In this document: positions 6,549 through 23,975 of the stretch, one piece after another
How the letters are laid out: each line of letters begins with the position of its first letter
Numbering within the stretch: the first letter of the stretch is position 1
Virus record (IMG/VR): IMGVR_UViG_3300020401_000083
Coordinates: 1 to 24,731 of that record
Length of the DNA: 24,731 nt
Strand: one strand, 5' to 3'
Origin: a virus
The notes under the pieces: model-generated
What the model was told of the DNA's origin: nothing
The model's database searches: none
The model's input: only the letters and a program-made list of their open reading frames with translations
Program-made: the position numbers and the translations under genes

Positions 6549-6860
6549 ATGCTAGTGAATGAAATCGTATCAGCAATATTAGAGAAAAGAATATGGGCAA
6601 AGTCTGGAAACAAGGTTGTCCGTAAGTACAGATGTACGTCTGGCATAAGAAAGAATAGAATCGTATCCAATATAGGACAATGCTTTGCGGCGCCAAATGT
6701 AAAGGCTAGAATTAGACTTAAAAGAACTAGAGCAAGACTTGGTTCAAGAATGGCACGTAAGGCACGTAGAACAAAACGTACAAATCCAGCATCACGTAGA
6801 GTAGCCGCTTTGAATAAAGCAGGTAGCAGAAGGGCACCTAGAAGTGCAAGAAGAAGATGA
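6549..6860 (+). CDS. arginine-rich protamine-like DNA-binding protein, copy 1
   Basis: 103 aa. After an N-terminal MLVNEIVSAILEKRIW the protein is extremely basic: a conserved KVVRKYRCTSG block at 22-32, then Arg/Lys runs to the end (SRMARKARRTKRTNPASRR, SARRR). Such composition means nucleic-acid binding or condensation. Paralogue of the next gene, sharing VRKYRCTSG-x-RK-x-RIVS and a second Cys. The N-terminus resembles the T4 capsid-targeting peptide, with a possible cleavage site I-L-E/K. I infer an internal head protein that neutralises packaged DNA or travels with it. No ribosome site is visible; the late promoter leaves almost no leader. An RNA-binding role cannot be excluded. Confidence 0.7.
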   Translation: MLVNEIVSAILEKRIWAKSGNKVVRKYRCTSGIRKNRIVSNIGQCFAAPNVKARIRLKRTRARLGSRMARKARRTKRTNPASRRVAALNKAGSRRAPRSARRR

Positions 6861-7180
6861 TTATCAGCGAGATCATAGAAGGTGCAGTTGGTATATGGTC
6901 TAAGGGTAAATCAGGACTAGTACGTAAATATAGATGTACGTCAGGCTCTAGAAAAGGACGTATTGTTTCAAGTCCAACAACTTGTAATCAACCAAAAAGA
7001 GTTTCAAGTTCTATTAACATTAGAAAAGCAAAATACAAGTATGGACGTAACATGAACATCAAGTCGCAAAGAACTAAACGTGCTGGTGCATTTAGTAAAA
7101 GACTTGCAAAAATTAACAAACGTAATTCTTTAACAATAAATAGGTACAAGCCTAAGAAAAGAAAAGCGAGAAGAAGATAA
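6857..7180 (+). CDS. lysine/arginine-rich DNA-binding protein, copy 2
   Basis: 107 aa, overlapping the first copy by ATGA. It opens MIISEIIEGAVGIW, again like a capsid-targeting peptide with a possible I-I-E/G cleavage site, and repeats the block LVRKYRCTSGSRKGRIVSS with two Cys (CTSG, TTCNQ). The C-terminal half is basic (YKPKKRKARRR). It differs from copy 1 by more Lys, Ser and Asn and fewer Arg. The tandem arrangement points to gene duplication followed by divergence. Role inferred as DNA binding inside the head. Confidence 0.7.
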   Translation: MIISEIIEGAVGIWSKGKSGLVRKYRCTSGSRKGRIVSSPTTCNQPKRVSSSINIRKAKYKYGRNMNIKSQRTKRAGAFSKRLAKINKRNSLTINRYKPKKRKARRR

Positions 7181-8355: not shown

Positions 8356-9135
8356 ATGAAAATTAGTCAAATATCACAACCTATTACTGCTAAGACGTTG
8401 AACGAGAGTCTGACAAAAAAGTTCGGCGAACGTATTAACCTTGAGGCATTTACATTAGAAAAATTACAAGATACAAGCAATAAGTTAAGAACTAAACTCA
8501 GCGACATTGAAACTAACGAAAGTTTTGATTCAGTTCATACTGACGAGTATCAAAAGAACAAATTATTTTTAGATATTATTAATGCTGAAATTAAAGAAAG
8601 ATCTGAAGCAGGCGAAAATATAGCAACGGCTGAGGCTGAAACTGTAAAAGAAGGCGCTGAAGAAGAAGCAACACTTGTTATGGCCGCAAAGGACATGGTA
8701 GACAGAGTTACAGGTTGGATGGAAGACACAGCAGAAATGCAAACTGAAGCGATGTTAGAAATAGGCGACAAGATTAGAGATGAAATGGGTTCTGAACAAT
8801 CAGAGCAGTTCATCGGTTCAGTGAAACCAGCATTGGAAACTTTATTCACAACATTAGAGCAAACTAGAGACGCACTTACAGGTGGCGTAGCCATTGTAAC
8901 AGGCGAAGGTGCTCCCGCACAAATGGGAGACGAGGCTCCGGCAGAAGAACCAGAAATGGAGCCAACAGTAGATGCTGAAGCAGGCGCAGAGGCAGAGGCT
9001 GGCGCTGAAGATGAATTTGCAACAAGCGAACCTGCAGTCGGTGGGGAAGAAGAAGCAGGCCGAGGTAAACGTGAAAGTATTGAAAGATCACGAAGACTTG
9101 GAAATATTCTGGCCGACTCAAAAAAAAAGTCTTAG
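8356..9135 (+). CDS. conserved acidic T4-like phage protein, 0-frame product of a candidate frameshift pair
   Basis: 259 aa in the 0 frame. N-terminal half: helical, charged (LEKLQDTSNKLRTKLSDIET). Middle: a conserved core (MVDRVTGWMEDTAEMQTEAM, QFIGSVKPALETLFTTLEQT). Then an Ala/Glu-rich low-complexity linker (about 195-240) and a basic end (RESIERSRRLGNILADSKKKS). I recall homologues across T4-like cyanophages, probably virion-associated, function unknown. The reading frame closes immediately after a run of nine A (9120-9128), and an adjacent -1 frame continues with clearly protein-like sequence; see the frameshift feature. The N-terminus MKISQISQPI is only a weak match to the targeting-like motif. 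Confidence 0.75.
   Translation: MKISQISQPITAKTLNESLTKKFGERINLEAFTLEKLQDTSNKLRTKLSDIETNESFDSVHTDEYQKNKLFLDIINAEIKERSEAGENIATAEAETVKEGAEEEATLVMAAKDMVDRVTGWMEDTAEMQTEAMLEIGDKIRDEMGSEQSEQFIGSVKPALETLFTTLEQTRDALTGGVAIVTGEGAPAQMGDEAPAEEPEMEPTVDAEAGAEAEAGAEDEFATSEPAVGGEEEAGRGKRESIERSRRLGNILADSKKKS
9120..9129 (+). other. candidate -1 programmed ribosomal frameshift site (A_AAA_AAG)
   Basis: In the 0 frame the codons are TCA AAA AAA AAG TCT TAG. This contains A_AAA_AAA (9120-9126) and A_AAA_AAG (9123-9129), the latter being the slippery heptamer of E. coli dnaX. The 0-frame stop (9133-9135) follows one codon later. Slipping back one base joins residue 258 to a 98-residue open frame ending at 9425. 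I see no convincing downstream stem or upstream Shine-Dalgarno stimulator. A homopolymer length error (true run of 7 or 10 A) would give the same picture. Confidence 0.6.
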
Positions 9136-9425
9136 AATCATCAACACCTAATCTTATCAGAATTCTCCGTATGCATTCACAAGCAGGCGAAGATAAAATC
9201 TCATGGGACGAATTAAATCAAGAAATGGCAAACTTAGGCTCAGAACAATTTGATGCTGAGACATTCAAACAAGTTTACGATACTGTTCCAGCAATCAAAA
9301 ATTTTGTAGATAGTTTTGACCCTGACGGGGTTACGTTCAAGGGTGGTGCTGATAAAGAAGTACCACCTGAGGACACAGGTACTATCGACCAAATGGCTCA
9401 AAGAGCAACTCAAGCCAATCTATAA
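9129..9425 (+). CDS. -1 frame extension of the 8356 protein
   Basis: Read in the -1 frame from GTC at 9129, this gives VLESSTPNLIRILRMHSQAG followed by a further 78 residues (EDKISWDELNQEMAN..., FVDSFDPDGVTFKGG..., ending RATQANL). The first ATG in the frame is at 9171, but it has no ribosome site, and the protein-like sequence extends upstream of it straight into the A-run, so I treat this as the C-terminal part of a 356-aa fusion rather than a separate gene. The domain is acidic and soluble; no family recognised. Confidence 0.6.
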   Translation, partial: VLESSTPNLIRILRMHSQAGEDKISWDELNQEMANLGSEQFDAETFKQVYDTVPAIKNFVDSFDPDGVTFKGGADKEVPPEDTGTIDQMAQRATQANL

Positions 9426-23941: not shown

Positions 23942-23975
23942 TTTTAGGTAAATATATATGTATCAAAGGAACAGT

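Follow-up and report, generated by a model that had tools for sequence, protein, structure and literature searches.

A nine-adenine slip site conserved in marine jumbo phages: a candidate transcriptional frameshift in a gene related to a virion structural protein

The DNA analyzed here, hereafter the window, was a stretch of 24,731 nucleotides from a virus (positions 1 to 24,731 of IMG/VR record IMGVR_UViG_3300020401_000083). The gene under study, named gene X, lies on its plus strand, and its features are collected in Table 1. Gene X ends in TCA AAA AAA AAG TCT TAG, and its reading frame terminates one codon past the heptamer A_AAA_AAG, just as the original prediction had described. The -1 frame, which had been claimed to be open from before the A-run, was indeed open from 9084 to 9425, and joining X to the extension encoded there, named domain Y, gives a protein of 356 aa. 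Protein X is predicted to be largely helical, with an acidic linker and a basic end of the form KRES..RRLG..SKKK, and its predicted model consisted of long helices and a disordered acidic linker with a mean pLDDT of 68.

Table 1. Features of gene X and of its 3' region in the window
Feature	Position	Strand	Remarks
Gene X, zero-frame ORF	8356..9135	+	259 aa; relative of a jumbo-phage virion structural protein
Weak hairpin abutting the A9 run	9095..9119	+	-1.6 kcal/mol in the subclade of the window, not significant
Slip site TC-AAAAAAAAA-G	9118..9129	+	A9 at 9120-9128
Domain Y, -1 extension	9129..9425	+	98 aa after SKKK; stop included in coordinates
Zero-frame stop TAG	9133..9135	+	one codon past the run; spacing differs between relatives
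First ATG of the -1 frame	9171..9173	+	inside the domain; not conserved; no visible ribosome site

Protein X matched phrog_14154 / Atu_ph07 gp044 (E 7.7e-10), and the X profile matched Phosso 458 (E 8e-19), Atu_ph07 gp044 (E 2e-12 in a small set) and gene 025 of Vibrio phage 2.275.O (E 4e-9). Atu_ph07 gp044 is annotated as a virion structural protein and is positioned inside the CDS 31-76 cluster, from which 29 proteins were detected by virion proteomics (PMC6102473). Judging from these sequence relationships, X is probably a virion protein as well. Dual products of this type had been linked to fixed ratios in tail and other complexes, and a tail-chaperone-like function is unlikely because the Atu_ph07 relative is annotated as virion structural. 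The DNA polymerase of a 117-kb relative contig placed these phages near the jumbo phages Phosso, Atu_ph07 and RaK2. Phage records gave no match in a DNA-level search or by tblastn of X and of the extension, and a search with a distant X member returned Atu_ph07 only, at E 0.5. For X and Y no Pfam match was found above the cut-off, and in ten contigs the Gp23 capsid family gave no match, with the controls giving no match either. Two contigs of 357,559 bp (L196) and 335,231 bp (L175) may be near-complete genomes of the X phage group.

The scan of viral contigs yielded 512 relatives, and the best 80 of the 512 were kept. The gene was directly readable in 79 of these 80, and all 79 carried the A9 junction together with an open -1 frame. 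Further scans gave 257 loci with a readable gene, which represent 122 distinct junctions spanning about 79 clusters at pS<0.25. The run at the junction was A9 in 116 of the 122 distinct junctions, A10 in three and A8 in three, and was never shorter. Throughout the 257 loci the homologues of the 259-aa frame terminated at or near the Lys run, and the -1 frame was open except where contig ends truncated it. The comparison of homologues that had been proposed, a continuous frame against a conserved slip site, was therefore answered by A8-A10 in all 257 loci and a continuous frame in none of them. The same A-run junction was also found in two genome-assembly contigs labelled Neomarinimicrobiota and Rickettsiales (L175 and L176), which are presumably phage contigs because the phage gene is present on them.

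The extension evolves as a protein, with the new frame under protein-level constraint, as the median pN/pS was 0.50 in the -1 frame versus 0.93 and 1.23 in the other frames. The open length of the -1 frame in relatives was about 86-130 codons, and the tail of Y ends in a conserved VD-MA-RAT motif that follows the predicted winged-helix-like fold. In the AlphaFold2 model Y was arranged as helix-strand-helix-helix-strand-strand with a core pLDDT of about 86, which is a predicted winged-helix-like topology. The fold search of the PDB returned weak matches only, many of them winged-helix domains, and that of BFVD returned a 128-aa protein of Atu_ph07, as long as gp043, at a weak E of 0.76. A diverse alignment of Y was without a stretch conserved enough for a search. 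The first ATG of the -1 frame, which had been noted to lack a ribosome site, indeed shows none and is not a plausible start for Y. Among the relatives no start of Y was conserved, as the first ATG, GTG or TTG ranged from +8 to +95 or was absent and often fell inside domain Y, and in many relatives the -1 frame opens merely about 12 nt 5' of the zero-frame stop. The predicted 356-aa form beside the 259-aa form is thus supported by the conserved run and the constrained, open -1 frame. We are nearly certain that gene X contains a programmed frameshift, whatever its mechanism.

A different arrangement was found in Vibrio phage 2.275.O, a cultured jumbo phage, in which gene 025 (X) is followed by a separate gene 026 of 118 aa with its own ATG and an AAGGAG ribosome site. 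Outside the family, the Y profile scored gene 026 highest among about 1240 ORFs (E 3e-4, against 0.29 for the next, unrelated one). Phosso and Atu_ph07 also have a separate gene of 128-132 aa at the position of Y, and for Phosso 459 and Atu_ph07 gp043 homology to Y was not established by profile. Atu_ph07 gp044, Phosso 458 and 025/026 of Vibrio phage 2.275.O thus share with the marine clade a homologue of X, and 026 resembles Y; unlike the marine clade, they have continuous ORFs, no slip site and a self-started downstream gene. Since the match of Y is a separate gene in Vibrio phage 2.275.O, Y was probably a separate gene ancestrally, and the marine clade later joined X and Y by the frameshift.

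Within gene X the length of the run was kept with little freedom. The codon 5' of the Lys run was TCA in 104 distinct junctions and AGY in none, although the Ser codons across gene X were 40% TCA and 44% AGY, and the use of TCA, never AGY, before the Lys run therefore indicates that the run is held at nine beyond the need of the heptamer. At A9 sites where the last Lys codon is AAA and then G follows, the preceding codon ends in G, T or C, giving nine again. TCA is itself frequent, so that the weight of the run-length argument falls mainly on AGY being absent and on the second gene described below. The X sites were in phases 2 and 0, and 112 of the 122 were in the phase that also yields A_AAA_AAG; the three A10 sites carry A_AAA_AAA instead, and the three A8 sites retain the heptamer. 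In L064, L247 and their relatives, a tandem pair of A9 runs was observed in gene X. A shift at the first of the two hits a -1 stop within a few codons, and therefore only the second run can give X-Y.

Elsewhere long runs were depleted. A count over 647 kb surrounding the 122 distinct loci, with the called slip sites set aside, gave 204 A/T runs of 7, 13 of 8, one of 10 and no run of 9, whereas a first-order Markov model predicts 304, 111 and about 41 runs for lengths 7, 8 and 9. The one 10-nt run (L256) was the slip site itself, a partial X duplicate having been called instead, and once it is counted as such no A/T run of at least nine occurred outside slip sites in the 647 kb. This depletion by itself does not discriminate between mechanisms. 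The partial X copy with its slip site at L256:2591-3741 is fused into an exonuclease ORF and is probably an assembly chimera. A few more A9 runs were present when three contigs were scanned over longer stretches. Contig G002 has additional A8-A9 runs, at L168:11562-11586 and L171:497, which appear intergenic.

The second gene was found through A9 runs in three long contigs. It encodes a membrane protein and carries a conserved A9/A10 run near its end; in the window it starts at 23958 (+) and is cut at the window end, 24731, with its slip site outside. In relatives its slip sites were located at L166:10500, L168:5230, L172:5499 and in L287-L374. Relatives gave 24 distinct junctions that combined an A8-A9 run with a -1 tail of 40 aa or longer; 23 of these had A9, and the phases of the 23 were phase 1 in 13 (offering only A_AAA_AAA), phase 2 in eight and phase 0 in two. 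A_AAA_AAG was missing from most of the junctions of this gene. Its main tail type, TEVIEPY.QN.EQ...LF.K, was conserved, and in L371 and L374 continuous ORFs carry it in their zero frame. Some members bear a different -1 tail, and the extensions may therefore not all belong to one family.

The hairpin that is weak in the window was far stronger, covarying and significant in one large group of relatives (LG.LL.DSKKK). Its mean in that group was -4.45 kcal/mol over 50 distinct upstream sequences, compared to -0.96 kcal/mol with synonymous codon randomisation and -0.88 elsewhere in the gene. Among 18 distinct sequences the covariation was 0.368 (0 of 500 shuffles), whereas slid structures did not exceed 0.099, and 93% of the cells paired. 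The hairpin was not consistent in the KRESVERSKKK clade. Downstream of the slip site no RNA structure was conserved (mean z -0.26), and upstream no general Shine-Dalgarno was conserved, with 17 of 81 sites being Shine-Dalgarno-like and one clade carrying GGAGG (8 of 81 sites). Downstream structure, an upstream Shine-Dalgarno and an internal start were thus rejected as explanations, none of them being conserved. The abutting hairpin could act on RNA polymerase and hardly on the ribosome, because it lies within a few bases 5' of the slip codons, where a ribosome would unfold it.

Transcriptional slippage is likely to be the main mechanism. RNA polymerase would slip on A9, a run that would just fill the RNA-DNA hybrid of 9-10 bp, and would add one A (or drop two) in a fraction of the transcripts. 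The altered transcripts, normally translated, would yield X-Y (356 aa in the window) and the remaining ones X (259 aa), and in one large group the nascent-RNA hairpin directly behind the run may enhance the slippage. A minority of X copies would then carry the winged-helix-like Y in a set ratio, and this module perhaps contacts DNA or another virion part. It has been reported that bacterial RNA polymerase, with its 9-10 bp hybrid, slips efficiently on nine A or T, and that a nascent hairpin adjoining the hybrid can stimulate slippage (PMC5009743). Slippage is favoured here because the A9 length is kept in whatever phase, in X and in the second gene, because the covarying hairpin abuts the run in one group, and because no downstream structure or Shine-Dalgarno is conserved. 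Against it, only some lineages have the hairpin, which is weak in that of the window, and its aid to +1 or -2 slippage is an assumption, as a loss of one base of the Roseiflexus type would give the wrong frame. In addition, nearly all X sites also carry the slippery heptamer, and ribosomal shifting may contribute or dominate.

A_AAA_AAG is a strong ribosomal slippery heptamer, and in programmed -1 ribosomal frameshifting on it (or on A_AAA_AAA) a slip back by one base would produce the same X-Y protein. We consider this rather unlikely. It agrees with the heptamer standing in the right frame both in the window and in most relatives, with its retention in the A8 variants and with the GGAGG of one clade, and the junction peptide SKKKV would be identical to that of the A10 RNA product, so that peptides alone cannot discriminate. 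However, six A and a G would suffice for the ribosome where nine A are held, phases 0 and 1 are in use, chiefly in the second gene, no downstream structure or Shine-Dalgarno is conserved, and the covarying hairpin sits where the ribosome would unfold it. Of the programmed -1 shift originally placed at A_AAA_AAG, the change into the -1 frame was therefore upheld, and the heptamer as conserved signal was not, A9 being conserved in any phase; of its ribosomal mechanism, the in-frame heptamer stands, while the stimulators are not conserved and slippage is better supported. That polymerase and ribosome both slip on the same run, summing to the needed ratio, is improbable: a phase-2 A9 contains A_AAA_AAG and makes both possible in most relatives, but the phase varies between the two genes, so that all sites can share no more than the polymerase part.

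The two readings without a frameshift are both exceedingly improbable. A homopolymer sequencing or assembly error, or a recent pseudogene, would mean that the true frame is continuous, and homopolymers are error-prone in principle; but the same run recurs in 257 loci from many independent metagenomes and in the two genome-assembly contigs, no homologue has a continuous frame, and the -1 frame is under protein-like constraint. Chance and assembly error are excluded as the source of the frameshift. Alternatively, Y would be a separate gene started inside the overlap, as gene 026 of Vibrio phage 2.275.O with its own ATG and AAGGAG might suggest. In the marine clade, however, the variable or missing starts, often inside the domain, and the opening of the -1 frame so close to the zero-frame stop speak against it. 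A separate, well-initiated downstream gene had been named as the case that would overturn the shift; it exists in the distant Vibrio phage and not in the marine clade, and the Vibrio arrangement, probably the ancestral state, does not refute the shift in the marine clade because no Y start is conserved there.

Frameshifts of tailed phages are usually interpreted as ribosomal. Gene X resembles lambda G/GT and other tail assembly chaperones in that a frameshift close to the 3' terminus of a phage gene produces a minority form with a C-terminal extension. The shift of the G/GT type is ribosomal and serves a chaperone absent from virions, whereas the relative of X carries a virion structural annotation, and neither a tape-measure nor a tail-tube gene was recognised next to X. 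As in the capsid or tail proteins of T3, A2, A118 and PSA (PMC5009743), a minority of a virion protein would carry an extra C-terminal domain; in those phages the shift is ribosomal and the domain often Ig-like, whereas that of X is predicted to be winged-helix-like and probably arises by polymerase slippage. Bacterial transcriptional slippage is known from Thermus thermophilus dnaX, Shigella mxiE/spa13 and Citrobacter tssM1, in which, as proposed for X, slippage on A or T runs of at least nine leads to two protein forms (PMC5009743, PMC4256274). By slippage spa13 gains a C-terminal extension of 112 aa and tssM1 (A11) is also extended (PMC5009743, PMC4256274), tssM1 being a characterised parallel (PMC4256274). 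These are bacterial genes, whereas X belongs to phages and is related to a virion protein; across its large and diverse family the run length is fixed, and in one clade a covarying hairpin adjoins the run. The Roseiflexus IS transposase is like the hairpin group of X in having an RNA hairpin directly 5' of the slip motif, beside the hybrid; there the motif is T5C5, one C is lost and the hairpin is required (PMC5009743), whereas X has a nine-A run needing +1 or -2 and a hairpin in some lineages only. Literature searches yielded no previous account of slippage in a virion gene of a phage, the nearest item being a slippage proposal for a Campylobacter phage methyltransferase. The recoding of X is thus of a known kind in a novel form.

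On balance we lean slightly towards a broader interpretation, in which marine jumbo phages of a large and largely uncultured clade would routinely use A9 slippage in at least two genes, one for a virion protein and one for a membrane protein, tuned by hairpins in some lineages and with runs purged nearby, and would have made slippage-dependent extensions out of what had been separate genes or zero-frame tails. If slippage is the true mechanism, this group controls by transcription in what proportion the two forms of a probable virion protein are made. Natural variation in run length, phase and hairpin, at a site that is itself simple, opens the contributions of run length and nascent hairpin to testing. 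Domain Y and the tail of the second gene are overlooked by ordinary gene calling in all these genomes.

Other features of the window were seen by eye. Several small genes, in the stretch 6549-7180 (+) and among the many genes starting with M(K/R)(I/L)-E(L/I), have a common short N-terminal leader, which resembles the head-targeting leaders of T4-like phages. Additionally, two adjoining basic proteins of 103 and 107 aa with RKYRCTSG look paralogous.
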